Below are positions 13,859 through 35,404 of a stretch of 49,200 nt of DNA, in pieces. A program made the position numbers and the translations under genes. The notes under the pieces are model-generated. The model had not been told where the DNA came from and did no database searches. It was given only the letters and a program-made list of their open reading frames with translations. The stretch spans positions 1-49,200 of the forward strand of contig JANYES010000012.1 of assembly GCA_025362975.1 (NCBI GenBank), in the 5' to 3' direction. Origin of the DNA: Alphaproteobacteria bacterium. GTDB lineage: Bacteria; Pseudomonadota; Alphaproteobacteria; Rickettsiales; SXRF01. Within the stretch, counting starts at the first letter, position 1; every line of letters starts with the position of its first letter.

Positions 13859-14117
13859 ATGGTAGCTCGTCGCGCACGTTCCGTGCAAGAACTGATGACA
13901 GGGAAAACGCCTGAAGGCTTACCGCCTTTGACGAACGTCCGCGCCTTGCCGTTTGCCGACGAACGTCTCGACCTTGTCGATATCGCCACAGAACTCAAAA
14001 CACTAAAACAAACACAAGCTGCCGGTGAAGACGCGGACGAACCCGCAGCACCTCCGGAAAATCCGCCCGATATGCCCGAGCCACCCGTATTGGACGTTCC
14101 TGCCGAAGATAAAAAAA
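13859..14117 (+). CDS. N-terminal segment of the metallopeptidase/VWA protein, in a different frame from the body
   Basis: This frame starts at an ATG (13859) preceded by GAGG at 7-nt spacing and reads a plausible, Pro-rich N terminus: VARRARSVQELMTG, then DLVDIATELKTLKQ and PPENPPDMPEPP. After the A7 run at 14111-14117 it becomes meaningless and stops at 14233, while the frame one base on (14118 onward) continues smoothly with KKPAYTLKQ and the large protein. One extra A in the run (A7 instead of A6) explains everything. Either the gene is frameshifted, the base is a sequencing error, or slippage at the A tract restores the frame. Confidence 0.6.
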
Positions 14118-16850
14118 CCGGCCTACACGCTCAAGCAGATGCAAGCCGATCTGGAAACTCCGCTGAACGAAGCGCATGTCGCGGGCGCCACATCGTTGGT
14201 CACGCGTTTATTCGCCGACATCGCCAAATATGAAACGGGCGGCGAGCTGGCCAAGCGCCAGAAAGAATTCAAGCGCGAAGCCGCGCTTGTGCGCGAATTG
14301 CTTACCACCGGTATACTTAACGGCAAGCCTGACCTCGACCTGCCCGAGCGCCAGCTCCTCTGGGCCGGCGCGCTGGACTCGCTGCATGCGCAAAACAAAC
14401 TCACCCGTGGCTTCCATGACGACCCGATCGTCGAAGCCGTGTCAGGCAGCCGCTTCGTCGATAGCATGACGATGGATTTCGCCCTGCAGGCCGGTATCAG
14501 CAAAGACGGCGCGCAGGCGCGCATCGTCATGGGCCCACCTGGCAGTTGGTTTTACAACGATTCGAGCCGCCACATCATCAACCTCGACCTCATCCAGTCG
14601 CTCATCCTCGGCGGCGTACGCGACGCACAGACCGGGCTTACCAGCACCAATGTCGACGACGTGTTCAACCACGAAGACGGCCATAACCGACTCTCGCTCG
14701 AATGGCCAGAAAGCATGCGCAAGCTGTACGACGAAATCGCCGTGCTGATGATTCGCGGCGGGCGCGAGGACGAAGTCATTTCCTTCCCCGACGAAAGCGA
14801 CGTGGTCAAAGAGGCCCGCGCCAAAGGCCCGGATCCCGAGGGCATCGAAAAAGAAGAATACATCAAACTGCACATGCTCAACGCCGAGTTCGAAATGCGC
14901 AGGCGGCAGTTGTGGAACTCCGCCGAGGACATCTGCGTCAACACTTTCGCCGTATGGAATTCCGACCCCGAGATGGGCGGCACCCACGAAGTGCACCTTG
15001 CCGACGGCATCAACGTCGTCAGCACCATCTCCACCAGCAACGGCAAGCGCGCTATGGAATATCTCGAAGGCAAAGCCAAGCCCATCGAAAGCGATTTCAG
15101 CCATTTCTGCCATTTCGTGAACATGACGTTCTTTGTCGAAAACCACCTGACGCCCGACACGAAAGAAGGCTGGCAGGCGCTCGGCGTCGATCTCGACCGC
15201 ATCGAGCAGGAAGCTATCCGCCAGGGCACGACACTCGCCGCCTTACGCGAAGTCTGCCATGCCATCGGGCAGGCGCAACCTTCGCTCATCCACGCCAACA
15301 AGCCTAAGGGTAGGGTGCCCGAAATCACCATCCCCGCGCTTGACGGGTCCGGGCCGCGCACGCTCGGTAAATCTGAAGTCGTCGATTCGAAAGAGTTGCC
15401 GAAGCGCTACAACCGCATCCGCAACGACATGATCGAAGAACTTCAGAGTTTTTGCAATTTGATGATTAAAAAAGAACTCGAAAAAGCCGCCAAAGACCTC
15501 GAAAATCAGATGAAGAACCCCAAAGGCGGCAAGGGCAAATCCTCCGGTAAAGGCCTCAAGGTCAAAGGCATGGAAGGCGACGCGCCCGCACCTGCCATAC
15601 ACGGCGGCAATCCCAATCAGGACCGCGGCAAGGAGCAGAAGAAAAACGGAGGCGGTGAAGCAGGCCGCAAAGCGCAGGACAAAGCAGCCGAAAAAGCCAA
15701 AACCGCTGGCACCATCCGCGAAGAAAAAATGGACGGCCGCAAACCCGGTGAAGACGACAGAACCCCATCCGAACTCGGCGAACGCAACGACAAGCCCCTC
15801 GACCCGTCTTCCGAACAAAAAGACGAATCCTACGCTCCGGGCAACATGTCCTCGGCGCGCGAAGGCTTACTTCTTGGCGACGGCAAAACCGTGCGCGAAA
15901 CCGCCAGCAGCTACGGCTTCATGGAGGCGGTCGCTGAAATCACTGCGTCGCTCAAGAGCATTTCGCGCCTTACCCGCCAGACCGAAAACGCCATCAGCGA
16001 CGACAATCTTTCACTCGTCCCCAAGCTCTCCGGGGGGCGCATGTTCAACCGCCCGGCGCTCAACCGCCTACAATCCAAACTCGCCTCCAACACTTTCCGC
16101 CCCGAAGACGCCGCCGTGTTCAACACGCGCGAGGAAAAAATCATCCCGTGTGAAGGCGATATCGTCATCATGGTCGACGGTTCGGGCAGCATGGGCGGCA
16201 CACCGCTGGAAATCGCCATGAAAACCGCCGAGCTGATTCGCCAGTCAGGCGAGGGCGCCAATTACCGCGTTTTCGTCACCATGTGGGGCGACAACAAGGA
16301 CTGGAGCAACATCGTCGCCGAGCAGAATCCCTACCTCATCGCCGAACCCGGCATGGACGCCGATCAGGTGCAGCGCCGCATGGAAACCGTGCTCAAAGGC
16401 CTCGAATCCGGCACCGAACTGGCGCCGGGCTTCCCCAATATGCTTAATCGCATCGGCGTCTCGCACCGCAAGCAGGGCGTTATGCAAGGGCGCACGCATT
16501 TCCTCATTATTAGCGATTGCGGCATCGCCGACCCTGAAGCAAGCCGCAAGAACATGGAAGCCGTGCTTAACGGCCTGCCGCAGGCGACGATGGACATCGT
16601 CCTGCTGCCAAACAGCGATTCCGGCGGGCTGCTTGACGTGGTCGCCAGCTTAAAACTCGATGACGAAAACAAGGCCCCGAAAATCATTCGCATCGACGAC
16701 GTCAACGAAATTACCGCCAAGATGGTCGGCCTGTTTGAAGAACGCGCCGGCAGCCTGCCAGCCAAATCCGCGCAATCGGCTACCGGCTATCGCATGCGCG
16801 TCAACAGTATTGCCAGTGACACCAAGCCGGAAAGCTGGGGTCATGACTAA
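14025..16850 (+). CDS. Large protein with HExxH metallopeptidase-like motif and C-terminal VWA/MIDAS domain (CobT/DUF2201-like)
   Basis: The coordinates give the open frame; real homology starts near 14118, and the genuine start is probably 13859 through the A7 frameshift. About residue 215 is FNHEDGHNR, a match to HExxH zinc-peptidase motifs. Near residue 297 WNSAEDICVN resembles the WNxAxDxxVN motif I associate with DUF2201-type putative metallopeptidases. Residues about 480-600 are a Lys/Gly-rich low-complexity linker. The C terminus is a VWA domain: MIDAS DGSGS near residue 718, then GTELAPG and ISDCG. Such proteins usually work with a MoxR/CobS-type AAA+ partner, and the next gene is one. 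CobN is absent here, so cobalt chelation is unlikely. Confidence 0.75.
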   Translation: MKTRTNPQHLRKIRPICPSHPYWTFLPKIKKPAYTLKQMQADLETPLNEAHVAGATSLVTRLFADIAKYETGGELAKRQKEFKREAALVRELLTTGILNGKPDLDLPERQLLWAGALDSLHAQNKLTRGFHDDPIVEAVSGSRFVDSMTMDFALQAGISKDGAQARIVMGPPGSWFYNDSSRHIINLDLIQSLILGGVRDAQTGLTSTNVDDVFNHEDGHNRLSLEWPESMRKLYDEIAVLMIRGGREDEVISFPDESDVVKEARAKGPDPEGIEKEEYIKLHMLNAEFEMRRRQLWNSAEDICVNTFAVWNSDPEMGGTHEVHLADGINVVSTISTSNGKRAMEYLEGKAKPIESDFSHFCHFVNMTFFVENHLTPDTKEGWQALGVDLDRIEQEAIRQGTTLAALREVCHAIGQAQPSLIHANKPKGRVPEITIPALDGSGPRTLGKSEVVDSKELPKRYNRIRNDMIEELQSFCNLMIKKELEKAAKDLENQMKNPKGGKGKSSGKGLKVKGMEGDAPAPAIHGGNPNQDRGKEQKKNGGGEAGRKAQDKAAEKAKTAGTIREEKMDGRKPGEDDRTPSELGERNDKPLDPSSEQKDESYAPGNMSSAREGLLLGDGKTVRETASSYGFMEAVAEITASLKSISRLTRQTENAISDDNLSLVPKLSGGRMFNRPALNRLQSKLASNTFRPEDAAVFNTREEKIIPCEGDIVIMVDGSGSMGGTPLEIAMKTAELIRQSGEGANYRVFVTMWGDNKDWSNIVAEQNPYLIAEPGMDADQVQRRMETVLKGLESGTELAPGFPNMLNRIGVSHRKQGVMQGRTHFLIISDCGIADPEASRKNMEAVLNGLPQATMDIVLLPNSDSGGLLDVVASLKLDDENKAPKIIRIDDVNEITAKMVGLFEERAGSLPAKSAQSATGYRMRVNSIASDTKPESWGHD

Positions 16851-16891
16851 TAACGCAACCCATTACACGATTTCACCAGTGGAGAATCAGC

Positions 16892-19759
16892 ATGTCTGAG
16901 AAAAAATTTAAACGCATCAAACTCAAGGCGGAAGACCGCAACGGCGGTTCCATCAGCACCGTCGCGCGCGATGCGCAGACAGGCAGTTACGGCTTCGCCG
17001 AGCGCGGCCTACTTTCTTCACACACGCCCGAAGAGGCGGTGGGCATCATTATGCGCCGCCATCCGACACTGGCAATGATGGAAGGCTGGCAGCACATGGT
17101 CAGCAATGTCGGCGAAAATTCCGACTGCCGCGCCACGTACATCGAAGGTCCTCCGGGCATCGGTAAAACTGAAATCGGCCTCGTGCTCGCAGAAGCGATG
17201 GGCGCCGAATCCCGCCTGATTCTGTGCGAAAAAAACAAGAGCTTAGACGATTTGATCGTGCGCCCGTTGCTGCGTCCCGAAGACAAGCGTTCCGACACCC
17301 AGAAGATCCAAGACAAAATCAACGTCGGTGAAATCAGCAAACTCGGCGTGCGCAAACTCAAGATTGCCCTGTCGGCAAAAGTTCTCGGACAGGCAAACGA
17401 CGCCTTTACCGAAGTTGATGGCAAAATCAAAATCGACCTCGATAAAGTGCCCGACGATAAAATCCCTGATGTCGATAAAATCATCGAAGGCCTGATCGCC
17501 AAGGAATTGCCCAAAGTCACCGGCGGCGGCCTCGGCTTCGACAACGTCGACGGCGATCTGATGCTCGCGCTCAAAGAATCGCTCGACCTCGATCAGCCCG
17601 ACAAATCAAAGCGCAAGACCAAGCCGATGGTTATTATGATCGACGAATTCTCGCGCCGCGGCGACGACGGTTCGCTCCAGCATTTCTTCGAAGCCATCAG
17701 CGGCGACAAGCGTGTGGCCTCGCTCACCGACGCCAAAGGCGTGAAGCACGAAATCACCGCCCAGCAGCTCAAAGATGCTGGCACGTATTTCATCTTCTCC
17801 GCCAACATGCGCCGGGAAGATGACAAGGTGATGGACATGCCGCCCGCGCTTCAGCGCCGTTTAAAACCGATCACCATCCGCGATTACGGTGTGTCGGATT
17901 TCCGCCACAGCCTTGAACGCGCCATAATGGGCGTGCCGCTTTCCACCATCAGGATGGCAGGCAAGCAGAACCCGATCTACCATCAGCAGACCCAGACGGA
18001 AGACGGCCTGCGAGATCTCGGCCTCGACATCCGCGACTTAGGGCGCGGTGACGAAGCCAGCCCGCTGCCGGATTCGCAGATCAGCTTCATTCATAACCAC
18101 GTAAAAGTTGCCAAGGGCCTGATGAAAGTCGCCGAGCTGTTCGACGAATGGCGCTCCATCGAAGACCCGAACTCGACCTATTACAAAGGCAACCCCGTCA
18201 CTACTACCGACGCCGAAGCCAAAGTCAGGGCCGATGTCGTCAGCAGCAAGAAAGCTCAACTCGGGCTCGCGGCGCGCAAATATAAAGAAGACCCTCGCGG
18301 TGTACCTTCGACGCCCGACATGAGCATCGGCATCGCGCTCGATCTCGTACGTAAAAGCTGGGAAAACGCCATCCGCCCGGACGATCTCCCGCAGCTAATC
18401 CGCAAGGAAGACGAGCCGCTGGAAGAGCGCTTCGGCGACTTCCTCGTGTTCCGTATCCACGAGTTCATTAACCAGCGTTATCCCGATCCCGATAACGTCA
18501 TCCGCTTGCACCTTGAAAAGCGCATGCTGGAACTCGGCGCGTTGCCCGAAGAACAGATCAATGCGGCTAAAAAGCGTTTAACCGATAAAGGCCAGGTCGT
18601 CTCCGACGTCGCGACCGAAACGCTGCCGGCCCTGCTCAACACCAACCCGCCGCTGCGCGCCAGCGAACAGGCGACCGGCTGGCGCGACGCGCTCGTCGAT
18701 TTCCTGAAGCAGAAATACAAGGATACCGAGCACCACATCAATGCCGATACGCCGCCCGCTGGCGTGCTTAGCGACGTGGCCGTCGACGCGCTCCTCAAGC
18801 GCATGCCGGAAGAATTGGAACAACACGTGAAGGATTTAGGCCCTATCGCCAAGACCCTGCCGCTGATTTTCGCGCAATCGCAAGAGGACGAGCACACCAA
18901 AAAAGTAACAAAGCGCGTCGGCATCGGCGAGATGCAGGCATTCGACCTCATCATGATGCACTCGCGCGAAATGAAGGATGCGATCGCGCAGGGCAATGAA
19001 GTGACGGGCGCGCTCCCCGGCCCGGATGCCAAGCGCGTGATCATGACCCTCGCCCTGCCGGGCGCCATGGATAAAGTCGGCGATCACCTTTTCATGGCAG
19101 GATACAGCAAGCATGTCGCCACCAAGAAGGGCAGCGACCATGAAGAGTTCTACATGATGGAAAATAAATCGCCGTCAGGCCTTGCTATCACCACGCTTCG
19201 CACCGAAGAACGCGAAGACGGCGACGCTGAAGTCTTGCAGGTCATCAAGCACACCAACAAAAAAACTGGCAACAGCACCATGCTGATCGTCGGCGACCAT
19301 GCGCTCGGTGGCGACCCGAAGGAAGACCACAAGCTGCGTAGCCGCCTCAAAGCCGCCAACATCACCTATGTGGCGCGCAGCGACGAGAACGCCCGCAACG
19401 CGGTAGAAAGCAAAATCGAAATGCTGGCCACCCTCGGCAAGCAGGAACTCGGCAACTCCCCACAGGCCGACCAGCTCGATTTGAAACTGTTGCTCAGCCG
19501 CACCTTCCGCCACCGCAATCCCGTGGTGCCGGAGTTGATCGAAAAGGCCGCCGCATTCCACGGTAAAGCCCCCGGCGAACTTTTCATCGAACAGGATGTT
19601 ATCCCCGGAAAAACCATTGCCGATCTGTTGCTGGAACCCGAGCTGACCATCACCAAATGGCCCGTCGTGCTTCGCGATAAGATGTTAGAGACCGTTGAAT
19701 GCGGCAGCCACGCAGCCGCCGCCGGAGCCGCGAAACCCAATGCCCAGCACACGAAATAA
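16892..19759 (+). CDS. MoxR/CobS-like AAA+ ATPase, 955 aa
   Basis: This is an ATP-driven remodelling protein, predicted to pair with the VWA protein encoded 41 bp upstream. Walker A is GPPGIGKTE (about residues 86-94), Walker B MVIMIDEFSRR (about 247-257), sensor 1 FSANMRRE near 301, and an arginine-finger-like segment PPALQRRLKP follows. At 955 aa it is roughly three times the length of a typical MoxR protein. The C-terminal about 550 residues are helical, charged and without a recognised domain, and could bind substrates. An ATG with GGAG upstream decides the start. It ends 12 bp before the 108-aa gene. Confidence 0.85.
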   Translation: MSEKKFKRIKLKAEDRNGGSISTVARDAQTGSYGFAERGLLSSHTPEEAVGIIMRRHPTLAMMEGWQHMVSNVGENSDCRATYIEGPPGIGKTEIGLVLAEAMGAESRLILCEKNKSLDDLIVRPLLRPEDKRSDTQKIQDKINVGEISKLGVRKLKIALSAKVLGQANDAFTEVDGKIKIDLDKVPDDKIPDVDKIIEGLIAKELPKVTGGGLGFDNVDGDLMLALKESLDLDQPDKSKRKTKPMVIMIDEFSRRGDDGSLQHFFEAISGDKRVASLTDAKGVKHEITAQQLKDAGTYFIFSANMRREDDKVMDMPPALQRRLKPITIRDYGVSDFRHSLERAIMGVPLSTIRMAGKQNPIYHQQTQTEDGLRDLGLDIRDLGRGDEASPLPDSQISFIHNHVKVAKGLMKVAELFDEWRSIEDPNSTYYKGNPVTTTDAEAKVRADVVSSKKAQLGLAARKYKEDPRGVPSTPDMSIGIALDLVRKSWENAIRPDDLPQLIRKEDEPLEERFGDFLVFRIHEFINQRYPDPDNVIRLHLEKRMLELGALPEEQINAAKKRLTDKGQVVSDVATETLPALLNTNPPLRASEQATGWRDALVDFLKQKYKDTEHHINADTPPAGVLSDVAVDALLKRMPEELEQHVKDLGPIAKTLPLIFAQSQEDEHTKKVTKRVGIGEMQAFDLIMMHSREMKDAIAQGNEVTGALPGPDAKRVIMTLALPGAMDKVGDHLFMAGYSKHVATKKGSDHEEFYMMENKSPSGLAITTLRTEEREDGDAEVLQVIKHTNKKTGNSTMLIVGDHALGGDPKEDHKLRSRLKAANITYVARSDENARNAVESKIEMLATLGKQELGNSPQADQLDLKLLLSRTFRHRNPVVPELIEKAAAFHGKAPGELFIEQDVIPGKTIADLLLEPELTITKWPVVLRDKMLETVECGSHAAAAGAAKPNAQHTK

Positions 19760-19771
19760 GGAGTACTTGTC

Positions 19772-20098
19772 ATGGATAATAAGCAAGCCAAACAGAAGTT
19801 CGAAGAAATCGCCGCCCATTTGCTGCCGGAAGCTGCGCGCCAGAAAGCGTATAACCGTCCGCTGCAAAACGTCAACCTTATCGATGTCTACGGTGTGGCC
19901 ACCGGCTGGGAAACTGAAGAGCTGGCGAGTGCTCGCAACGTCGAAACCGCAACGACGTCCGAGCAGGTCGAGGCCGCGCTTAAAAGCCGCGACCACGACA
20001 GCCTGCTCATTCGTAAAAGTGCGAAGCTCACACTGGAATTGCTGGTGCAGAAACTTCGCCTGTGTACCGTTCCCAAGCACATCTTCCTTGAACAATAG
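19772..20098 (+). CDS. Hypothetical 108-aa protein linking the AAA+ gene to the ankyrin array
   Basis: No family recognised. It is a soluble, mostly helical protein (KQAKQKFEEIAAHLLPEAARQ at the start; SAKLTLELLVQKLRL near the end), with no signal peptide and a single Cys. It lies 12 bp after the AAA+ gene with AAGGAG upstream, and 23 bp before the first array gene. It lacks the C-terminal tail shared by the downstream paralogues. Its place in the operon suggests an accessory subunit of the AAA/VWA complex or an adaptor (inference). Confidence 0.6.
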   Translation: MDNKQAKQKFEEIAAHLLPEAARQKAYNRPLQNVNLIDVYGVATGWETEELASARNVETATTSEQVEAALKSRDHDSLLIRKSAKLTLELLVQKLRLCTVPKHIFLEQ

Positions 20099-20121
20099 CC
20101 CGATGAGCAAAGGCGGGCGCC

Positions 20122-20892
20122 ATGTCATCTCTTCTATTGGATAATATTTTCCGCTCGCTGCGGAACACGATCGACGAGGACGATTTTTCGTCGTTGCGCG
20201 CTGGGCTTCGCAACGCTGTGCGTTATCCGGGGTTTGACATCAATGCCCCGATCCCCGGCAATCCGATGGGCATGAATCTGCTGCATTATGCGGTGGCTAA
20301 TGTCGGCACCGGTCAAATCCAGAAATATCTGATCAACGACATGAAGATGGATCCGAACGCGCGCAACGCCACCGGCGGTACGCTGATGCATAGCTTCGCC
20401 ACGGGCTCCATCGGCAACCGCTCAAGCGCCAGCGCAACCTTCGAATGGCTGGAATCGCTGGGCTTAAACTGCATCGAAAAAGACGATCTCGGCCGCACTC
20501 CCATCGCGCTTGCGTCTAACCATACCCAGCCCGGCAATGCCGTACGCGCACGTTACGAATCCTCGCTGGATTTCATCGAAATCCTTAAAGAAGAAAATTT
20601 CCCCATGCATGCGCTGCTGGAGCGTGACGGTAAGCCCGGCGTGTCGTTGATCCGCCTCGCCGAAGTCGGCCTGTTGCCCACCCTCGCCAAGCCTGAATAC
20701 TGGGAAGGCCGCATCGACGATCTGCATAAAGTCATCGCCGCCCTGCCGGTTAAATACCACAATGAAGTCGACGTCACGCATTGGCGCACTGCTCTCCTCG
20801 ACAAAGCCCCCAACGAAGAACCCAGCGCCGTCAAGCGCTACGTCCGCCCGAAGAAAGATTCCTCTGCCGACAAAAAGACCGGCAGGAGCTGA
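20122..20892 (+). CDS. Ankyrin-array protein 1, 256 aa
   Basis: First and most divergent of the 20 tandem paralogues. Ankyrin-like units are seen at about residues 50-85 (NLLHYAVANVGTGQIQKYLI, then DPNARN) and 88-150 (GRTPIALAS). The shared C-terminal module follows: ERDGKPGVSLIRLAEVGLLP, then YWEGRIDDL (the Trp-x-Gly position), VDVTHW in place of IDMS, and the tail SAVKRYVR. It has no signal peptide or membrane helix. It ends 2 bp before gene 2 with a ribosome-binding site inside its last codons. Confidence 0.75.
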   Translation: MSSLLLDNIFRSLRNTIDEDDFSSLRAGLRNAVRYPGFDINAPIPGNPMGMNLLHYAVANVGTGQIQKYLINDMKMDPNARNATGGTLMHSFATGSIGNRSSASATFEWLESLGLNCIEKDDLGRTPIALASNHTQPGNAVRARYESSLDFIEILKEENFPMHALLERDGKPGVSLIRLAEVGLLPTLAKPEYWEGRIDDLHKVIAALPVKYHNEVDVTHWRTALLDKAPNEEPSAVKRYVRPKKDSSADKKTGRS

Positions 20893-20894
20893 CA

Positions 20895-21374
20895 ATGGCA
20901 GACATCGAAGAAATCACCAATAACCTCTATCTCGGCGCCGATCCTTATACAAAAAACGGCCACGGCAAAACCGTGCTCGAAGCCTGCCCGGATTTTAGAA
21001 TCCAGTGGGACGGACACGTCGCATACTTGCAAAACCAACTGACCGGCGCGCTAAAAAAACCTGCCACCCTGAAAAACCACCTCATCGAAAACAGTGAATT
21101 CACGCCACTCACACAACAATATGTGGTTGCGCGCATCCTGCCTGATGTGTTCCGGCCCGATTGCTGGCAGGGCAAAGAAAAACAGGCGATCGAACTCTAC
21201 GACCAACTCCTCGACGCCGCGCCGAGGGCGCAAAAAGCAAAAATCATCAACAGCATCGACGTCACGTCCTTGCGCGAAAAACTCCTGCCCGAGCCCGAAG
21301 ACATGAACTCCGCCGTCAAACGCTACGTGCGCTCGCCCAAACCCGGCAAGAGCGCGGGGAGGGCCGATGGTTGA
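20895..21374 (+). CDS. Array protein 2 without recognisable ankyrin repeats, 159 aa
   Basis: It starts at ATG 20895, 2 bp after the stop of array gene 1, with GGCAGGAG as ribosome-binding site; the open frame extends further upstream but overlaps gene 1. The N-terminal about 75 residues show no ankyrin pattern. The C-terminal half is the common module: LPDVFRPDCWQGKEKQAIELYDQL, SIDVTSLREKL and the tail SAVKRYVR. It thus shows that the module can exist without the repeats. Confidence 0.75.
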   Translation: MADIEEITNNLYLGADPYTKNGHGKTVLEACPDFRIQWDGHVAYLQNQLTGALKKPATLKNHLIENSEFTPLTQQYVVARILPDVFRPDCWQGKEKQAIELYDQLLDAAPRAQKAKIINSIDVTSLREKLLPEPEDMNSAVKRYVRSPKPGKSAGRADG

Positions 21375-27528: not shown

Positions 27529-28448
27529 GCGATCAGGACACGCTGCTCGAAGCTATTTATGAAGGCGATCTTCCGCGCATCAAAATGGCCGTCATTCACG
27601 GCGCGCAACTCAATTACGTGTATCGCAACGCGAGTTTAACGGACGTCAATTTCAAAAACGTGACGCCTTTGGTCGCGGCGATCGGCAATTACAAACAGAC
27701 GATTGCGCTGTGGATGCTTGAAAACGGCGCCGAATTCCGCGAAAGCTTCATGCTCGATGACGCGAATTACCAAACCAACACGTTGGTAGAAGCCGCACGC
27801 TACGGCATGCCAGATGTCATACGCTGGCTGCTTGAGCACGAAATACATCCGGACGCGAAGACCTCCTCCGGCGAAACCGCGCTCACGGCCGCTTTGAACG
27901 CGGACAGCATCAACACGTTTAGTGCGCTGCTCGATGGTGGCGCATCGCCAAATAGCCCCAATCCCCCCAACTCCCCCATCTTTGAAATGACCTACGGCAG
28001 CGTGGACGAGCTTATCAAAAACTACTGGAACCCGCTGGTCAACGCAGGCGCGGATGTCACGCTGTATAAAACGAACCGCGCGGATGATAAACTCAAGGAA
28101 AAATGCGAAAAACAGATCGCAAAAATCCATGCGAAACTTTCCTGCTTGCCCGGCGCGGGCGCGCCGCGCTTCACGCTGGTCGAAGATGGCCGCCCGACCA
28201 AAGACCCGCTGCATATTCTCGGCGCTGGCGAACTGCCTGAGCTGTTTTCTAATCACCGCTGGCAAGGCAAAGAAAAGCAGGGCATCGAATGTTATGAAAG
28301 CATTAAAGATGTTCTGCCCGAGTATTTCAAAATCGCCCATCCGCTCGACTTATCCGCGCTGCGCGAGCAATCGCTGCACCATCTCGAAGAGACATCCGCC
28401 GTTAAACGCTACGTGCGCCCGCGCGGGCCGGAAAGCAGGCAGCCATGA
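27525..28448 (+). CDS. Ankyrin-array protein 10, 307 aa
   Basis: It overlaps gene 9 by 4 bp. Repeats: LLEAIYEGDLPRIKMAVIHGAQL, VTPLVAAIGNYKQTIALWML with ENGAEF, TLVEAARYGMPDVIRWLL, and ETALTAALNADSINTFSALL with DGGASPN. A basic coil (KLKEKCEKQIAKIHAKL) links to the module: KDPLHILGAGELPELF, RWQGKEKQGIECYESI, PLDLSALREQS and the tail SAVKRYVR. Confidence 0.8.
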   Translation: MSDQDTLLEAIYEGDLPRIKMAVIHGAQLNYVYRNASLTDVNFKNVTPLVAAIGNYKQTIALWMLENGAEFRESFMLDDANYQTNTLVEAARYGMPDVIRWLLEHEIHPDAKTSSGETALTAALNADSINTFSALLDGGASPNSPNPPNSPIFEMTYGSVDELIKNYWNPLVNAGADVTLYKTNRADDKLKEKCEKQIAKIHAKLSCLPGAGAPRFTLVEDGRPTKDPLHILGAGELPELFSNHRWQGKEKQGIECYESIKDVLPEYFKIAHPLDLSALREQSLHHLEETSAVKRYVRPRGPESRQP

Positions 28449-29356
28449 GCGCCGCGTCACAAAATATCCTCCTGCGCGCCATGCTGCGCAACAAGCGCGA
28501 CCTGTTCGAAGAGGCGGTCGCTGATCACGCCGACGTCAACTTCATCTACGACTCCGTGCAGATCGGTAACGATAATCACCGCGATATCACGGCGCTGCGC
28601 ATCGCCATCGAACAGCGCAACACAATCCTCGCTGAACGTCTGATCGAACTTGGCGCCGACCCGCACGCATTGATGTATAACCGCTCCTCGTTGACCCAGG
28701 CGGTAGAAAAAAACATGCAGGCGCTGATCAACAAAATCGCTGATAAAGGCATCGACCTCGATGTGCCCAACGCGCATGGCAACCGCGCGCTTGAAATTGC
28801 TATCTTCAATTCCAATAAGGAAATGTTCGAGCTGCTATTGGAGCGGGGTGCTTCGGTCAACCCCAAGGGCGGCCTGCCGCCGTTGGCGCAGATCGAATCG
28901 TACTCGCCCTACATTCAAAAACTAATTGACCGCGGCGCCGACACCCAGCCGAAGGACAATTCCGGCCTGCGCATTGCGCTCCATGAAGCCACCTGCCCGG
29001 TCGTGCAGCGCACGAATCAAACCATCACCGAGTTGCTGCGCGGCTACATAAACGACCCCACTCTGGAAGCCGCCCTCATCGACAAAAACCAGCCGACAAT
29101 CCTGCTCAACCAGATCCTGTCGCTGCACCGGCTTGAAGAAGTCTTCACCCGCTATATCTGGAAAGGCCACGAGCGCGACGCGCTAGAATTTTTTGATACC
29201 ATTGCTAAAACCGTGCCCCCGCATTATCGCGATTCGCTCAGCGAAATCGATATGTCGGCGCTGCGCGAAGGCGCGCTCAGCAGCCCACAAAGCGAATCTG
29301 CCGTTGAACGCTTTACCAAGCGACAGTCACGCACGCCGGGAGGCAGGCTCTCATGA
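28445..29356 (+). CDS. Ankyrin-array protein 11, 303 aa
   Basis: It overlaps gene 10 by 4 bp. Repeats: LLRAMLRNKRDLFEEAVADHADVN, ITALRIAIEQRNTILAERLI with ELGADPHA, SLTQAVEKNMQALINKIA, and RALEIAIFNSNKEMFELLL with ERGASVNP, then LIDRGADTQPKD. The module has PTILLNQILSLHRL, YIWKGHERDALEFF, EIDMSALREGA and the tail SAVERFTK. It shares GADTQP and other unique strings with protein 12, its neighbour. Confidence 0.8.
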   Translation: MSAASQNILLRAMLRNKRDLFEEAVADHADVNFIYDSVQIGNDNHRDITALRIAIEQRNTILAERLIELGADPHALMYNRSSLTQAVEKNMQALINKIADKGIDLDVPNAHGNRALEIAIFNSNKEMFELLLERGASVNPKGGLPPLAQIESYSPYIQKLIDRGADTQPKDNSGLRIALHEATCPVVQRTNQTITELLRGYINDPTLEAALIDKNQPTILLNQILSLHRLEEVFTRYIWKGHERDALEFFDTIAKTVPPHYRDSLSEIDMSALREGALSSPQSESAVERFTKRQSRTPGGRLS

Positions 29357-30261
29357 ACCCGCAGGAAAGACTCCAGAAAGCTATCATCAGCGGCGATCAG
29401 CAAGAATTCGAACAAGCCATCGCGCTGAAAGCCGATGTCAACTACTTGTATCCACGAATCAGCGGCACGCGTATGGGCGACTTAGTCAATATCCATCCGC
29501 TGCATCTGGCGATTGTCTGCCGCAAGCCTGAACTTGCCGAACGCCTCGTTGAACTCGGCGCCAATCCCAGCAATCATTTTAACGGTTGCTCAGCCGTCAA
29601 CGTCGCGATCGAATACCGCATGCTACCGCTCATCCGCGCCATGCATAAAGCAGGTGCCAACCTCGACCAGATGGACGATTTCAACTTCTGCCCGCTCACC
29701 GTAGCGATCAACTATGGGGACTCGGAAATGTTCGACCTGCTGTTGGAACTCGGCGCCTCGATCAATCCTGCGGATACCGATATGTCGCCGCTTGAGAAAC
29801 TCAATCACGAAACACTTCCCTTCACTCGCCGGCTGCTAGACAAAGGTGCCGACACGCAACCGCGCGATAGTCGTGGCACGATCAGGCCGCTAAACAGTGA
29901 AGTACAAAAAGTCATCACTGAAAGCCGCGCCGTTCTCAGTCAGATGTTTGACGAAATGCCGGAAAAAGGCGTAAACGAAACCCTCTTCGTCGATCACGGC
30001 AAACCCCCTGCGCGTTTGCTGCTCATCCTCGGCCAGCACCGCCTGCCGGAGCTGTTCGCCCCTAAGCAATGGAAGGGCAATGAGCGCGAAGCCGCCCAAT
30101 TCTTCAAACAGATCAAAGCCGCCACGCCCGCGCATTACCGCCAGCAGCTCGCGCAGATCGACCTGTCCGCCCTCAACGAAACGGCGCTGGGTAATCCCGG
30201 CACTTCCGCCGTCGAACGCTTCAAGCGCTCGAAGAAAATTGCAAGGGAGTTAGGCTCATGA
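29353..30261 (+). CDS. Ankyrin-array protein 12, 302 aa
   Basis: It overlaps gene 11 by 4 bp with GGGAGGCAGG as ribosome-binding site. Repeats: FEQAIALKADVNYLY, IHPLHLAIVCRKPELAERLV with ELGANPS, NVAIEYRMLPLIRAMHKAGANLD, and PLTVAINYGDSEMFDLLL with ELGASINP, then LLDKGADTQPRD. The module has LLLILGQHRLPELF, QWKGNEREAAQFF, QIDLSALNETA and the tail SAVERFKR. Probably a tandem duplicate of protein 11. Confidence 0.8.
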   Translation: MNPQERLQKAIISGDQQEFEQAIALKADVNYLYPRISGTRMGDLVNIHPLHLAIVCRKPELAERLVELGANPSNHFNGCSAVNVAIEYRMLPLIRAMHKAGANLDQMDDFNFCPLTVAINYGDSEMFDLLLELGASINPADTDMSPLEKLNHETLPFTRRLLDKGADTQPRDSRGTIRPLNSEVQKVITESRAVLSQMFDEMPEKGVNETLFVDHGKPPARLLLILGQHRLPELFAPKQWKGNEREAAQFFKQIKAATPAHYRQQLAQIDLSALNETALGNPGTSAVERFKRSKKIARELGS

Positions 30262-31196
30262 ACGATCAGGAGAAACTCCTCTGGGCCATCATTCGCAAAA
30301 ACCCCGCCGACGTGCAAGCAGCACTTCTGGCCGGTGCCGATCCGCAGTTCCATTACCCCATCGTGGAGTTTGTCGGTGAGAACGTTACGCCGCTTTACAT
30401 CGCCGTCAGCAGGTCCAGCGACGAAATCGCAGACATCTTCCTGCCGAAAAAAATAGACGCCCCGATGGAAGTGTTCGGCGACCCCGCCCGCCCCAACTTC
30501 GTCGGCAACACCATCTTCCACGAGGCGGCGGTCAAAGGACGCACCTATATTATCAAAAAACTGGTCGAAGCCGGTGCGGATATCCACACCTCCGTGCATG
30601 GCGGTGAAACGGCACTGCACTGGGCAGTCATGACCGATAGAATCGACAGCGCCAATACCCTGCTCGAACTTGGTGCCGACCCGAACGCAGGAAAACCCGG
30701 CATGTTCGGGCTAATCAAAAATAACGAACACCACGACGAATTAGCCCAAACCCTGATCGACGCGGGCATCGACGTGAAAGCAAAGGACGCCAAAGGCCGC
30801 GCCTCGACCGATTTCAACATGCCGATGCACCGCGCCGCGAGCCAGCACCTGCGCGAACTCGCCGACAAGCTGGGCCGCATCGGCAACGACATGCCACAGC
30901 AAGTACTCGTTGAAAACGGTAAACCCACCATCCTGCTCAACCACATCCTCGGTGCTCACCGCTTGAACGATGTCTTCAAACTCGGCCGCTGGAAAGGCCG
31001 CGAACAAGAGGCGTTCGACACCTACGACGCCATCAAAAACGCCGTCACCGCGCATTACCGCGCCGATATGCGCGCCGTCGATATGTCGGCGCTTGCCGAA
31101 AGCACACTCGGATCGCCGAAAAAATCCGCTGTCGAACGTTTCACGCGCTCCGCTAAATCGCGCGCCGATAAACCCTACGATGGGGGAATCGGCTGA
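30258..31196 (+). CDS. Ankyrin-array protein 13, 312 aa
   Basis: It overlaps gene 12 by 4 bp. Repeats: LLWAIIRKNPADVQAALLAGADPQ, VTPLYIAVSRSSDEIADIFL, NTIFHEAAVKGRTYIIKKLV with EAGADIHT, ETALHWAVMTDRIDSANTLL with ELGADPNA, and LIDAGIDVKAKD; all five are easily recognised. The module has PTILLNHILGAHRL, RWKGREQEAFDTY, AVDMSALAEST and the tail SAVERFTR, nearly consensus. Confidence 0.83.
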   Translation: MNDQEKLLWAIIRKNPADVQAALLAGADPQFHYPIVEFVGENVTPLYIAVSRSSDEIADIFLPKKIDAPMEVFGDPARPNFVGNTIFHEAAVKGRTYIIKKLVEAGADIHTSVHGGETALHWAVMTDRIDSANTLLELGADPNAGKPGMFGLIKNNEHHDELAQTLIDAGIDVKAKDAKGRASTDFNMPMHRAASQHLRELADKLGRIGNDMPQQVLVENGKPTILLNHILGAHRLNDVFKLGRWKGREQEAFDTYDAIKNAVTAHYRADMRAVDMSALAESTLGSPKKSAVERFTRSAKSRADKPYDGGIG

Positions 31197-32047
31197 TGCA
31201 CCCACAACAGAAACTCCTCAACGCCATAGCGACCCACGACCTGCCCCTCGCCAAAGCCGCCGTGGCCGACGGTGCCGATCTCGAATACCACTATCCCGAC
31301 GTCAATTTCAGCGATGATTTATTCGGCAATTTCTACTTCAACCAGACCGCGCTCTCGCTCGCCATCGCTACGCATAGCGAGAAAATCGCCGTCTACCTCG
31401 CGTCGCACATGCCAGATAGCATCCACAATTTGCAGACCTTTGAGAATGATACATACCTCCACCTCGCTGCCCAATACGGCATGGTGGAGTTGATCTTGCA
31501 TATTGCCAAAGCGGGCGGCAACCTCGACATCGCGCTGGCGGATTATGAAGCTCCGCTTGACCGCGCGCTTTCCAACAACCAGCCCGCCGCTTTCATCGCG
31601 CTGCTGGAGCAGGGCGCATCGCCGCACAAGGCGCGCAACATTCTTTTGCTTGGCATTACGTCCGAGCTTCGCAACTGGGACGAATGCCTGCAATCGCTGT
31701 TCGACCACGGTGAGCATATCCGCGCCGCTGGCCCAAACGGCTTGCAGCTCAATCGGCTTGAACATAAACCAAAAGAAATGTGCCTCCAGTATTTACGTGA
31801 TGTCGACAAGCTGATGGAATGCAAGGAAGGCGAAGGCGCCGACCATTTCAAGCTGCTGGAAAACGGCCGTGCCGCTAAAAAGCTCAACCACATTCTTGGC
31901 GCCGATAAACTGCCCGATTTATTCTCCCTCAAGCGCTGGCAGGGCAGGGAACAAGAAGCCCTCGATCTGTACAAAGCCATCGAACCCGCCATCGACCCCT
32001 ATTACCGCTCGCAATACGACATGCTCGATATGTCCGCCATACGCTAG
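31196..32047 (+). CDS. Ankyrin-array protein 14, stopped by an in-frame TAG just before its C-terminal tail
   Basis: It shares one base with gene 13 (TGATG). Ankyrin units: LLNAIATHDLPLAKAAVADGADL, TALSLAIATHSEKIAVYLA, TYLHLAAQYGMVELILHIA, APLDRALSNNQPAAFIALL with EQGASPH. The module reads LNHILGADKL, RWQGREQEALDLYKAI, LDMSAIR and then TAG at 32045-32047. The same frame continues without interruption to 32131 and encodes the missing tail (SAVERYTRK), so a single base change created the stop. The product lacks the tail unless the stop is read through. Confidence 0.78.
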   Translation: MHPQQKLLNAIATHDLPLAKAAVADGADLEYHYPDVNFSDDLFGNFYFNQTALSLAIATHSEKIAVYLASHMPDSIHNLQTFENDTYLHLAAQYGMVELILHIAKAGGNLDIALADYEAPLDRALSNNQPAAFIALLEQGASPHKARNILLLGITSELRNWDECLQSLFDHGEHIRAAGPNGLQLNRLEHKPKEMCLQYLRDVDKLMECKEGEGADHFKLLENGRAAKKLNHILGADKLPDLFSLKRWQGREQEALDLYKAIEPAIDPYYRSQYDMLDMSAIR

Positions 32048-32127
32048 CACGCCCTCGGCGTTCCCAAAGACACCTCCGCCGTGGAGCGCTACACGCGCAA
32101 ACCCGGAAGGCAGGAAGGCAGGCAATC

Positions 32128-32208
32128 ATGAAACACGCCGTGGAAGCCAGCACCGTCGTGCGCTACCGGCGCAGACGCGAACCGAACGCACCGAAGGATA
32201 AATCCTGA
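32128..32208 (+). CDS. Array remnant 15: tail-only mini-gene, 26 aa
   Basis: The ATG overlaps the distal stop (32129-32131) of the gene-14 frame by 4 bp, as in the rest of the array. It encodes just MKHAVEASTVVRYRRRRE and eight more residues before TGA. That is the terminal SAVERYxR-type tail with a Met in front, everything else having been lost. The stop shares a base with the next start (TGATG). Whether it is translated as a peptide or merely relays ribosomes is unknown. Confidence 0.5.
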   Translation: MKHAVEASTVVRYRRRREPNAPKDKS

Positions 32209-32597
32209 TGATGCCGGAAAACGATAACCCGCTGGTCAATGCCATCGTCGCCAACGATTTGCCCGGCGTCAAACGCGCCGTCGCGAACGGTGCCGATCTC
32301 AACGTCAGGTACGAGCTCGTCCTGCTCGGCTGCAGCAGCAGCAAGAACGTCTATGCCCGCGGCCTGCCGCTGGAAATCGCCATCACCGCCGAGCGCGACG
32401 ACATCGGCGCCTATCTCGTCGGCTTTATTAAAACCACCAACGCTCTCGCCGATATCCTCCAGACCGCCGCCACCCGCGAGGTGCCGCACACCATCGAAGC
32501 CCTCGTACGCGCCGGTTACGACGGCGAGCCGCAAACCTGCGCCGTCGAACGTTTCACGCGCAAAAACATGGCTATTAAACCAGAGGGCAGGGTTTGA
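32208..32597 (+). CDS. Array protein 16, internally deleted, 129 aa
   Basis: It starts in a TGATG junction. The N-terminal repeat is retained (LVNAIVANDLPGVKRAVANGADLN) with a second partial unit (PLEIAITAERDDIGAYLV). About 150 residues expected from full-length members are missing, including the Trp-x-Gly-x-Glu and IDMS parts of the module. The tail CAVERFTR is present. It is a clean in-frame internal deletion, not random decay. Confidence 0.65.
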   Translation: MMPENDNPLVNAIVANDLPGVKRAVANGADLNVRYELVLLGCSSSKNVYARGLPLEIAITAERDDIGAYLVGFIKTTNALADILQTAATREVPHTIEALVRAGYDGEPQTCAVERFTRKNMAIKPEGRV

Positions 32598-33034
32598 TGT
32601 CAGCGCAAGACGATCTCATCGAGGCGGTCAAAGCGAAAAACACAAGCGGCGTGAAAAAAGCGTTCACGTCAGACGCCGACGCGAATTACGCCCACTCCTT
32701 TGCCGGCATCCGCTATGAAACCTATGACGACGGCCGCTCCAACATCCGCGCGCTTGATCTATCTGGCCTTCGCGCTGATGCGCTCAACACCAAATCCGAA
32801 CCCGCTGCCTTCGAATGTTTCCGGCGCTTCGCCTCCCATCACTGGGAAGGCAGGGAGCCTGCCGCCGTCTCCCTCTTTGAAGACCTCATCGCCGCCATGT
32901 CCGTGCGCGTCAAGCACATCGCTCTTGCCGATATCGACATGTCCGCCCTGCGCAGCGCTGCTGCCGCCGTGAAACCGACTGAAAAAAGCGTCGTCGAGCG
33001 TTACAAGCGACAGGACACGGAGCGCAGCCGATGA
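32594..33034 (+). CDS. Array protein 17, shortened, 146 aa
   Basis: It overlaps gene 16 by 4 bp. The N-terminal about 45 residues keep the first ankyrin helix pair (LIEAVKAKNTSGVKKAF with DADANYAH). Residues about 50-65 contain ALDLSGLRADAL, which looks like an extra copy of the IDMS segment joined directly to a second module (HHWEGREPAAVSLFEDL, DIDMSALRSAA, tail SVVERYKR). It therefore seems to be a fusion of two degenerate array genes. Confidence 0.65.
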   Translation: MMSAQDDLIEAVKAKNTSGVKKAFTSDADANYAHSFAGIRYETYDDGRSNIRALDLSGLRADALNTKSEPAAFECFRRFASHHWEGREPAAVSLFEDLIAAMSVRVKHIALADIDMSALRSAAAAVKPTEKSVVERYKRQDTERSR

Positions 33035-33804
33035 CCGATTTCATGATAAGCGACAACACCTCGCTGATGCACCAGATGATCCGCACCGGCAACCTTGCCG
33101 GAGTCAAAGAATGCCTCAATCGAGGCGTCGATTTCCGCCAGCGTTGCATCACGCGCGACTTCGCAGGTTACCTGCCGCTGCACCTCGCCGCCCGGATGGA
33201 AGCGTCCACCACAATGCAGCCGATCATAGACGCATTGCTCAAAGCCGGTGCTGGCATCGACGATAAAGGCTGCGAAGACGGCAAAACCGCCGTCATGACC
33301 GCCGCGCAATTCGAGAAGTGGCGCAGCTTCGAGCGGCTGCTCAACGCGGGCGCAAATCCTTACGAGCAAAACAAAGCCGGTCTGGACCTGCTGCATGTCC
33401 TTGTCTACGGCCATCAAAACTACAAAACAGCCGCCGCCACCGCCTATTTTAATTATGCTAATAATCTGAAAAAAGCAGTGCACCAGAAACATTTCGAACC
33501 CGCCGAATTGCGCCGGACCCTGATCGGTGACGACGGTGCTGCCACCGGCATGGCCAAAGCTTACACCTACGCCCACGCCCTGCCGGAAATCTTCGCTTTG
33601 CATCACTGGAAAGGCAAGGAGGCGCAAGCCACCGAACTATTCGCAAACCTTATTGCCGCCATGCCCGCGAGCGTAAAGAAGATAGCACTTGCCGATGTCG
33701 ATATGTCTGTCCTGCACAGCGCCGCCGTCGCCGGTGATACTAACGAAAAAAGCGCCGTCGAACGATACAATCGCAACAAAGACTCCAAAGGAAACCTGCG
33801 ATGA
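33031..33804 (+). CDS. Ankyrin-array protein 18, 257 aa
   Basis: It overlaps gene 17 by 4 bp. Repeats: MIRTGNLAGVKECLNRGVDF, YLPLHLAARM with LLKAGAGIDDKG, TAVMTAAQFEKWRSFERLL with NAGANPYEQN. The module has a GDDGAATG insertion also seen in protein 19, then LPEIFALHHWKGKEAQATELF, DVDMSVLHSAA and the tail SAVERYNR. With protein 19 it forms a distinct subfamily in which the second repeat reads LPLH. Confidence 0.8.
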   Translation: MTDFMISDNTSLMHQMIRTGNLAGVKECLNRGVDFRQRCITRDFAGYLPLHLAARMEASTTMQPIIDALLKAGAGIDDKGCEDGKTAVMTAAQFEKWRSFERLLNAGANPYEQNKAGLDLLHVLVYGHQNYKTAAATAYFNYANNLKKAVHQKHFEPAELRRTLIGDDGAATGMAKAYTYAHALPEIFALHHWKGKEAQATELFANLIAAMPASVKKIALADVDMSVLHSAAVAGDTNEKSAVERYNRNKDSKGNLR

Positions 33805-34580
33805 ACCCAGATTTACGCGACAACACCGAAATTCTTTACCAGATGCTCGAGAGCAATAACCCCGGCGGCGTCGAAAGCTGCCTCGCGCTCGGCGTCAACT
33901 TCGACCAGCCCTGCACCAACTCGGACTTCATCGACTGCCTACCCCTGCACATGGCTGCCATCAGCCCGCATTCGCCGGATAAAGCAAGAATCATCCACAT
34001 GCTGCTCGACGCCGGCTGCGACATCGACGGCCCCTGCCGCGCGAGTAATTCCACGCCCCTGATGGTCGCCTCCGACAGCGGTGAGTGGCTTAATTTTCGC
34101 CTGCTGCTCGACATGGGCGCCAACCCGCACCTCAAGGACACCACCGGCAACGCCGTCACCAGCATCACGCAGTATAATCGGGACAAAATGGAGCTCGAAA
34201 CCACCCCCAATACACATTACGAGTCATACTGCAAGCAGCTCAAAGGTTATCTGCATAACCTGCCCGCCGACCCCGACCGCTATCGCCGCATGCTCTTCGA
34301 CGACGATGGCAAAGCCACCGGCCGCGCCACCGCCATCATCCACGCCAATTTGATGCCGCACGTATTCACGCCCAAGCGCTGGGTGAACAAGGAAGCGGAT
34401 GCTGTCGACCTCTACGATCAGCTCGTTGCCGTCCTGCCGCCGCCTCTGCGCGCCATCGTACGCAAGGAAATCGAAGTGTCGGATTTGCGCAGCAAGGCCG
34501 TAGAAAAACCAAGCTCCCCGAGCGCCGTCGAGCGCTACAAAGCTAAAAACAGAAAATCCAAAGGCCACGACCGCGAATGA
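33801..34580 (+). CDS. Ankyrin-array protein 19, 259 aa
   Basis: It overlaps gene 18 by 4 bp. Repeats: MLESNNPGGVESCLALGVNF, CLPLHMAAI with MLLDAGCDIDGP, STPLMVASDSGEWLNFRLLL with DMGANPHLKD. The module has FDDDGKATG, LMPHVFTPKRWVNKEADA (Gly of Trp-x-Gly lost), EIEVSDLRSKA in place of IDMS, and the tail SAVERYKA. The N-terminal two repeats align without gaps to protein 18, the most similar pair in the array. Confidence 0.8.
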   Translation: MNPDLRDNTEILYQMLESNNPGGVESCLALGVNFDQPCTNSDFIDCLPLHMAAISPHSPDKARIIHMLLDAGCDIDGPCRASNSTPLMVASDSGEWLNFRLLLDMGANPHLKDTTGNAVTSITQYNRDKMELETTPNTHYESYCKQLKGYLHNLPADPDRYRRMLFDDDGKATGRATAIIHANLMPHVFTPKRWVNKEADAVDLYDQLVAVLPPPLRAIVRKEIEVSDLRSKAVEKPSSPSAVERYKAKNRKSKGHDRE

Positions 34581-35404
34581 CTGCTGTGCGCCATATCTCC
34601 ACCCATCTGCACGAAGCCATCTCCAGCGGCCGCCTGACCCACGTACACCAGTTGCTGCAAGACGGCGCCGACCCGAACGATGCTTCGTCGGACTATGGCA
34701 TGCGCCCGCTGGGGGTCGCCCTTTCGAGCCGCGCGCGCGTCCCTACCGATGACCTGCTGAAAATCACCGCCATGCTGATGGAATTCGGCGCCGATCCGCA
34801 CCTCATCGACCCGCGCGACAACACCAACGCCATCACCTATGCTTCCCTCATCGGCGACAGCTCACGCTTCCTTGAAATCATGTTCACCACCGGCAGGCAT
34901 CGGGGCAACCCCAACCTCACCGACCATAACGGTCTGCTGCCGCTGCAAATGGCCAACGGCCAGGCCGAAGCTAAAACGCTGATCAAATTCGGGGCCGATA
35001 TTTTTAAGCCCTGCTACGACGGCCAATCTGCGCTGGAAACCTACCGCCTTGAACGCCCAGAATGGGTGCCGATGCTGCTGATGGAAGCTCTCGTCCGCCC
35101 GCACATGTGCAACGGCCGCATCAACATCAACTTCCTCGTCGATAGTCGCGGCAACCCGACCAGAATGATGATACAGCTGCTGCAAAACACCGTACCCGAA
35201 GCGCTGATCGACCCTGCGCTCTTCGAGCGCCCGCAGGATTTATACCGGCTCTTCCCGCTGCTTCCTCCCGCGCTGCAAGGCCGCATCGACATGTCAGGCT
35301 ACCGCAACCATAAGCTAGAATCCTATCCACAGGACGCCGAAGCCGAAGGCTTCATCAAGCGCTACCGCCGCTCTCCCCCGGAAAAAATCCCCAACGAACG
35401 TTAG
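34577..35404 (+). CDS. Ankyrin-array protein 20, last of the array, 275 aa
   Basis: It overlaps gene 19 by 4 bp. Repeats: HEAISSGRLTHVHQLLQDGADPN, RPLGVALSS with MLMEFGADPHLID, LPLQMANGQAEAKTLIKFGADI. The module is the most divergent: no Trp-x-Gly-x-Glu, but RIDMSGYRNHK and a tail EGFIKRYRR remain. It is the 3' end of the plus-strand operon. Its TAG stop overlaps the TAA of a convergent minus-strand fragment (35401-35514); no terminator hairpin is seen. Confidence 0.78.
   Translation: MTAVRHISTHLHEAISSGRLTHVHQLLQDGADPNDASSDYGMRPLGVALSSRARVPTDDLLKITAMLMEFGADPHLIDPRDNTNAITYASLIGDSSRFLEIMFTTGRHRGNPNLTDHNGLLPLQMANGQAEAKTLIKFGADIFKPCYDGQSALETYRLERPEWVPMLLMEALVRPHMCNGRININFLVDSRGNPTRMMIQLLQNTVPEALIDPALFERPQDLYRLFPLLPPALQGRIDMSGYRNHKLESYPQDAEAEGFIKRYRRSPPEKIPNER

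Follow-up and report, generated by a model that had tools for sequence, protein, structure and literature searches.

The 49,200-nucleotide window analysed here is the whole of contig JANYES010000012.1 (C12) from an Alphaproteobacteria bacterium of the order Rickettsiales (assembly GCA_025362975.1; our genome G000, a 3.26-Mb draft in 28 contigs). At positions 13859-35404 of its forward strand it carries a co-directional run of genes coding for a metallopeptidase/VWA protein, an AAA+ ATPase, a small protein and a long tandem series of ankyrin-type proteins with a common C-terminal module. The first three genes form a core that is kept together in other genomes with invariant active-site motifs, while the module occurs on leucine-rich repeat (LRR) proteins as well as on ankyrin proteins, and co-occurs with the core in the genomes searched. 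We give about even odds to the reading that the repeat proteins are solenoid adaptors feeding an ATP-driven remodelling or proteolytic machine built from the core.

A common C-terminal module on two classes of repeat protein

Motifs were counted over the 20 units of the window array, the expectation being derived from 500 shuffles. The pattern W-x-[GND]-x-E is present in 15 of the 20 units (shuffles: mean 0.4, maximum 3), [ILVP][DE][MLV][ST] in 18 (mean 2.9, maximum 7) and [ST][AV][VI]xR[YF] in 15 (mean 0.03, maximum 1). An earlier note on this DNA, made from the sequence alone, had described C-terminal motifs shared by all 20 genes; they do occur far above the level of the shuffles, and they are not universal.

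After five iterations over 2,395 six-frame open reading frames (ORFs) of 29 loci, a profile started from the window tails recruits outside the window only genes that lie downstream of other cores, namely two in genome G008, one in G442, two in G702 and one in G315 (E 0.023). Further profile searches covered 3,173 six-frame ORFs of 40 loci, with E values up to 0.01. In these, the profile of the window tails only matches 12 ORFs outside the window, one of which is a degraded remnant of the module on contig C20 of the same genome; a profile of the LRR-protein tails matches 22 ORFs outside its training loci, including an ankyrin protein of genome G049 (E 1.8e-11); and a profile of the G008 and G442 tails matches 23. 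At E up to 0.001, 43 ORFs match the combined module profile, which gave no match on the reversed ORFs. In profile-profile comparison, the LRR tails are related to the G008/G442 tails at E 8e-21 (probability 99.3), and the window tails to the LRR tails at E 2.5e-6 (probability 88.7).

Both repeat classes were found with the module in G049. An LRR protein of this genome (LRR_6 133.7 bits, cut-off 23.4) has the module at E 1.9e-17 (E 0.0059 with the window-only profile), and an ankyrin protein (Ank_2 53.7 bits, cut-off 27.3) has it at E 4.5e-14. As G049 supplied no training sequence, this is, at the level of sequence comparison, the cleanest evidence for an exchange of repeats. At one of its loci (L156), LRR-type and ankyrin-type module genes stand in a single run; of two LRR genes there, one exceeds the Pfam cut-off and the other does not, and the ankyrin gene falls short of it too. 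From the profile match lists, 15 module genes were counted in G049. Many of them (loci L155-L160) end alike, in GIGR or a similar sequence, which may be a C-terminal signal or may only reflect recent duplication.

Across the order, 4 of 343 genomes have module matches with E no higher than 0.001, obtained with a profile that is blind to the tail type of G007 and G336, and the AAA+ gene is present in all four; G049 is the sole independent case of this co-occurrence, because the other three genomes supplied training sequences. The possibility that the module is an ordinary ankyrin repeat was rejected, since its profile finds only these four genomes and nothing among the reversed ORFs.

Judged from the sequences, the repeat class is thus exchangeable while the module stays, a point that had gone unnoticed in the earlier note. 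A common C-terminal part on ankyrin and on LRR repeats is what interchangeable adaptors would predict. The earlier suggestion that the ankyrin proteins are such adaptors therefore gains from the occurrence of the tail on different repeat classes and from the restriction of module genes, within the order, to genomes with the AAA+ gene, and loses in that the array is not obligatory, as discussed below.

Predicted structure and conservation of the module

The structure of the protein encoded at 25137-26072 was predicted with a mean pLDDT of 90.7 and a pTM of 0.84. The model comprises ankyrin repeats at residues 1-187, which are matched in Foldseek by DARPins and gankyrin, a folded helical module at residues 222-287, and a low-confidence tail; the pLDDT is 92-95 in the module up to residue 280 and 45-58 from residue 291 onward. 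Conservation among 15 paralogues, expressed as mean BLOSUM score, is highest in the peptide 288-299 (2.46), and amounts to 1.55 in the module, 0.67 in the ankyrin repeats, 0.14 in the last 12 residues and 0.05 in the linker. The Asp of the [IV]DMS motif (D276) is nearly invariant in the same paralogues. The array proteins are hence predicted to end in a folded module followed by a conserved, flexible peptide.

It should be noted that a tail peptide that is the best-conserved segment of the protein would also fit a processing site, and would then point to solenoid proteins that are clients of the machine and not its adaptors, being matured, assembled or activated by it, for example when the tail is cut or pulled. 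The co-directional order and tight overlaps of the genes agree with this, as does the dedicated target of NorQD described in the accessible part of PMC13036017. However, a separately conserved folded module, differing repeat classes and many divergent copies look receptor-like rather than like a single client, and at six loci no such protein is encoded next to the core; we therefore regard a client role as unlikely, and adaptors as the better description.

The three-gene core

The first gene (13859..16850, forward strand, frameshifted) encodes a protein with an N-terminal HExxH metallopeptidase motif and a VWA fold as its C-terminal domain, and is adjoined by the AAA+ gene. The HExxH and the DxSxS (MIDAS) residues are invariant in all 14 aligned VWA proteins, the broken VWA genes of G342, G344 and G027 having been left out of the alignment. 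The VWA domain of the window protein is below the Pfam cut-off by sequence (15.3 vs 27 bits) and clear by structure. The predicted structure is of moderate quality (pLDDT 74.3, pTM 0.56), and the best match of its C-terminal part is the complex of the Rea1 MIDAS domain with the ubiquitin-like (UBL) domain of Ytm1 (Z 17.9, root-mean-square deviation 2.9, 205 residues); NorD bound to NorQ matches with Z 17.0 (deviation 6.0, 237 residues), and ordinary VWA domains rank behind both, at Z of about 14.

Among predicted viral proteins, the best Foldseek matches of the model are phage CobT-like/VWA proteins, with alignments of up to about 900 columns at E 3e-11 and with TM-scores that are low, about 0.2, as with flexible multi-domain models. 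The phage family PHROG 1576 matches two of the 14 VWA proteins of alignment A3 (best E 1.5e-5), a possible link, in sequence, to phage CobT-like proteins. An identity with the CobS-CobT cobaltochelatase was rejected, given that CobT_C scores 12.7 vs 21 bits on the window protein and reaches E 0.015 at best among the 14 homologues.

The second gene (16892..19759, forward strand) encodes an AAA+ ATPase of 955 aa, which matches Pfam AAA_5 (dynein/MoxR-related) with 28.9 bits against a cut-off of 22. The GK of Walker A, the DE of Walker B, N305 (sensor 1) and R323 are invariant in 13 of 13 AAA+ proteins, in an alignment that left out the truncated genes (G020, G342, G392, G049 and the C132 copy of G315) and G336. 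With this family match, the intact motifs and the structural matches of the partner to Rea1-MIDAS and NorD, the assignment to an AAA+/VWA machine of the MoxR/Rea1-like type is supported, in line with the MoxR-like reading of the earlier note.

The third gene (19772..20098, forward strand) encodes a small protein of 108 aa without a known family, for which Pfam gave no match at E up to 1. A homologue lies directly 3' of the AAA+ gene in all 16 loci that hold the 3' side of that gene (13 in the alignment, two by profile and one recognised by eye); the three other loci are those of G315 C73 and G392, which are cut, and of G020, where the AAA+ gene is truncated. In G342 the AAA+ gene itself contains stops. 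The small gene consequently belongs to the core, which the earlier note had overlooked. A PDB search with sequence profiles of the small protein or of the module gave nothing useful, and the small protein was rejected as a stray copy of the module (profile-profile probability 0.2%, no similarity). At three loci (L015 11562-12377, L055 14880-16031 and L016 11521-13050), a gene behind the small one encodes a further HExxH protein (with HEIAH or HELTH) or a protein of 509 aa that contains EEILH.

Distribution of the core and of its repeat-protein neighbours

The core is present in 15 alphaproteobacterial genomes and at 19 loci, three of them in the genome of the window (C12, C15 and C20), two each in G007 and G315, and one in each of twelve others, the two contigs of G336 and of G344 being counted as one locus each. 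Five core loci derive from metagenome-assembled genomes, four named 'Alphaproteobacteria bacterium' and one 'Rickettsiales bacterium'. Fourteen of the genomes were found with a VWA profile, and all 14 have the AAA+ gene; the fifteenth, G049, was found via the module and has its AAA+ gene at a contig end. With the genome of the window counted each time, VWA profile A1 has matches in 3 of 16 genomes within the family, in 10 of 343 within the order and, for the class, in 5 of the 385 sampled. Among 398 genomes drawn from the phylum, the match is strong in the genome of the window only, and seven others match weakly and in the VWA region only. A search of genome contigs with the window AAA+ protein as sole query gave no match. 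Foreign origins of the core were also considered and rejected: tblastn with one VWA homologue against 50,697 phage records gave no match, alignment A6 recovered no relative among viral contigs, and one AAA+ homologue had no match in plasmids.

Repeat or module genes adjoin the core in 10 of the 16 loci that hold the 3' side of the AAA+ gene. Ankyrin genes are found there in the window (Pfam-backed in the five proteins scanned) and in G008 (also Pfam-backed, as in G049), and, by reading of the sequences, in G007 C13, G313, G336 and G342, the ankyrin proteins of G313 and G342 having no clear module. LRR genes adjoin the core in G000 C15 (above the Pfam cut-off, as are three G049 proteins) and, with a class assigned by reading, in G315 C132 (no Pfam match) and G702 (three in tandem, of which one scanned protein is below the cut-off and another has no match). 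In G442, module repeats stand beside the core without a recognised solenoid. A separate ankyrin gene was noted in the genome of the window at L017 (C20, 382-400 kb), amid large genes that by eye look helicase- or nuclease-like.

Repeat proteins of this kind could in principle be effectors, exported to a eukaryotic host or to another cell, probably by type IV secretion, with the module and the basic tail as export signal and the AAA+/VWA pair preparing export. VirB4 is indeed present in 14 of the 15 core-bearing genomes, and the tail is basic and C-terminal. However, VirB4 discriminates poorly, because it is also present in five of five relatives without the core and has no match in G442, which has the core and four module proteins. 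Moreover, a typical C-terminal secretion peptide is smaller than the folded module. A precedent comes from Orientia, whose ankyrin proteins are reported to interact with the SCF1 ubiquitin ligase (PMC4148323). Among the ankyrin proteins of the window, the five scanned gave no match to F-box, PRANC or SOCS-box at E up to 1, and the lack of the first two speaks against such an effector role. On balance, we consider it improbable that the repeat proteins are exported rather than used as adaptors inside the cell.

Three further genes next to the core are common to G007 C8 (L016 910-6980) and G020 C46 (L050 7369-12637), with 60-71% identity; one is recombinase-like by eye, and the two loci come from two different families. 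The presence of the same three mobile-element-like genes beside two core loci suggests that core loci may travel with a mobile element. It would also suit a variant form of MoxR-vWA ternary conflict system, with the solenoids sensing invaders, the machine setting the threshold and an output other than proteolysis of the bound target; MoxR-vWA systems with variable further components are described in the part of Kaur 2020 (PMC7159879) that we could consult. PADLOC, run on 13 AAA+ proteins, gave two models with one weak match each (E 1.7e-4 over 28 residues, and 4.7e-4), the peptidase is N-terminal of the VWA domain instead of being a C-terminal effector, and the words ankyrin and HExxH are absent from the main text of PMC7159879. 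A conflict system of this type thus appears highly unlikely, more so than export or a client role.

A possible mechanism and the evidence against it

Mechanically, the closest parallels to an adaptor-fed machine of this kind would be Rea1-MIDAS and NorQ-NorD. If the array proteins are adaptors, the AAA+ ring would engage the VWA protein as in NorQ-NorD, where the VWA finger of NorD inserts into the NorQ pore (PMC13036017, accessible part). The N-terminal ankyrin or LRR repeats would bind varied targets, and the shared C-terminal module with its flexible tail would dock the solenoid protein on the machine. The Asp of the [IV]DMS motif is perhaps a candidate ligand of the VWA MIDAS, by analogy with the UBL domains of Ytm1 and Rsa4 on Rea1: as far as the consulted part of PMC6624252 goes, the Rea1 MIDAS binds a conserved glutamate of these domains, and Rea1 strips both proteins from pre-ribosomes. 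ATP hydrolysis would then pull or unfold the target, which the N-terminal HExxH domain would cut, and the repertoire would grow through tandem duplication, with exchange of the repeat class and retention of the docking part.

A more specific version, namely modular targeted proteolysis by a Rea1-like AAA+/MIDAS machine that is split into separate proteins, has its own metallopeptidase and draws on an expandable set of ankyrin/LRR receptors plugged in through one module, a prokaryotic functional counterpart of the F-box and SOCS-box families, is conceivable, and we put it forward with some reserve. A role in intracellular surveillance, maybe of mobile elements or phage, is a guess and the least supported part of this picture. 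If the proposal were true, a bacterial AAA+ protease would pick its targets via a large set of exchangeable repeat-protein receptors, a principle otherwise familiar from the ubiquitin ligases of eukaryotes; MoxR/VWA remodelling, Rea1-type MIDAS docking and proteolysis would be linked in one system; and the array, with its 20 units, would amount to a natural collection of ankyrin binders that share a docking tail, re-usable for directed protein degradation in bacteria.

Several findings weigh against the adaptor reading. The first concerns the array itself: at 6 of the 16 loci (G000 C20, G007 C8, G316, G027, G344 and G049), neither a module gene nor a solenoid gene adjoins the core, the G344 contig stopping 973 bases beyond it. 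Module genes exist elsewhere in G000, G027 (where the ankyrin class is again a reading of the sequence) and G049, and G007 has a second locus; G316 and G344 gave no module match anywhere in the genome. The array is therefore an accessory of the pair and not obligatory. The earlier note had asked whether tail-bearing ankyrin genes always accompany the AAA+/VWA pair, and had stated that pairs regularly lacking such a neighbour would refute the idea; in the genome search this was partly the case, with six loci lacking one, ten having repeat or module genes, and some of the latter having LRR instead of ankyrin genes.

The remaining points concern the module and the peptidase. The acidic position within the SAVERY motif varies; the window-only profile reaches the LRR proteins weakly (E 0.003-0.006); the profile-profile match of the window tails with the G008/G442 tails, at E 3.6e-4, has a probability of only 37; and the G007 and G336 tails show no significant relationship to the other modules. 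Structure matching against the PDB gave no fold assignment for the peptidase domain, because the matches span mainly residues 592-877, and no zinc ligand besides HExxH was identified. In this assembly the first gene is disrupted, which the earlier note had not noticed: the ORFs 13859-14233 and 14025-16850 overlap but are read in different frames, and an A7 run (14111-14117) falls within the overlap. The change of frame may be an assembly error, slippage or a real break, and in the G007 homologue an equivalent N-terminus, recognised by eye, is in one continuous frame. Finally, docking, target binding, cleavage and the biological role are inferred.

Comparison with known systems

MoxR/VWA pairs, the metallopeptidase-vWA protein and MoxR AAA+ protein of jumbo phages, and MoxR-vWA ternary conflict systems are already known. 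To our knowledge, NorQ-NorD, RavA-ViaA, CbbQ-CbbO and CobS-CobT, in which AAA+ and VWA are likewise separate partners, have dedicated targets and have no HExxH domain, small third gene or solenoid array. The pair of group 2.2 jumbo phages, for which a role in virion assembly has been proposed (PMC7824862, accessible part), resembles the core in having the metallopeptidase N-terminal to the vWA in one protein and a MoxR AAA+ partner; in contrast, the loci described here are in bacterial genomes, and have a conserved small third gene and a solenoid repertoire. Rea1/midasin likewise joins an AAA+ motor to a MIDAS domain, which engages a small domain present in the factors to be pulled (PMC6624252, consulted part), but is a eukaryotic single chain acting on pre-ribosomes without a peptidase, and has two known ligands (Ytm1 and Rsa4) where a large paralogous library is found here.

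The MoxR-vWA ternary systems (VMAP, iSTAND, iSTAND2 and TERNS3) share with the present one MoxR, vWA and a further variable component. Their third components differ, and the accessible parts of PMC7159879 and PMC8195603 describe no ankyrin/LRR library with a common tail. In VMAP-type systems the effector is typically C-terminal to the vWA, while here the VWA domain is C-terminal and the peptidase N-terminal. As for a third component of the VMAP, iSTAND or TERNS3 kind, the small protein has no Pfam match and the five ankyrin proteins have repeat matches only, the coverage of such components by Pfam being unchecked.

In ankyrin/SOCS-box, LRR/F-box and poxviral or rickettsial ankyrin/F-box receptors, N-terminal repeats recognise the target and a common C-terminal part plugs into a degradation machine. 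The proposed working principle would be alike; these receptors, however, serve eukaryotic ubiquitin ligases, and none of their C-terminal domains was found in the five window proteins scanned. In the literature, searched in titles and openings of abstracts and with most subscription journals outside the search, we found no description of ankyrin and LRR proteins that share a C-terminal module and lie beside such a pair.

Organization of the array and flanking genes

The co-directional run at 13859-35404 described in the earlier note was borne out, ORFs, order, strand and coordinates being in agreement. Of its 22 gene junctions, 13 are overlaps of exactly 4 nt and three are overlaps of 1 nt. 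Promoter-like and terminator-like sites at 13500-33499 are at chance level (6 vs 8.5 and 34 vs 36 in shuffles, respectively).

Behind the core, all on the forward strand, ankyrin proteins with the module were recognised by ORF, Pfam and motif scan as proteins 1 (20122..20892), 4 (22338..23303) and 13 (30258..31196), to which the modelled ankyrin protein 7 (25137..26072) is to be added. ORF and motif scan identify protein 2, with the module (20895..21374), the ankyrin-type proteins with the module 3 (21367..22338), 5 (23300..24217), 6 (24214..25140), 8 (26069..27019), 10 (27525..28448), 11 (28445..29356) and 12 (29353..30261), the short protein 9, which is mostly module (27016..27528), and the ankyrin-type protein 14 (31196..32047), with an in-frame TAG immediately before a tail that is readable beyond the stop. 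There follow a 26-codon ORF that is hardly more than a tail (32128..32208, by motif scan) and, by ORF and motif scan, a short ankyrin-like protein with the tail end only (32208..32597), a short protein with the module and a TTG start (32594..33034) and two ankyrin-type proteins with the module (33031..33804 and 33801..34580). The series is closed by an ankyrin protein with a divergent module (34577..35404, by ORF and Pfam). The count of 20 genes originally given thus corresponds to 19 ORFs of at least 129 aa plus the 26-codon ORF. Likewise, gaps had been put at no more than about 41 bp after the first gene; the largest is in fact 80 nt if the ORF 32128-32208 is a gene, or 160 nt if it is not, because the TAG ends the gene 31196-32047 early.

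The left flank of the window carries bacterial housekeeping genes, and a 331-aa protein without a Pfam match (12528-13523) is encoded in divergent orientation immediately upstream of the operon. The GC content of the array equals that of the left flank, and falls from about 0.57 to 0.45 directly after the array. Just downstream lie genes for a tyrosine integrase (36028-37293) and for an AAA_25 protein (37983-39878), so that the segment 36028-39878 is probably an integrated element abutting the operon.

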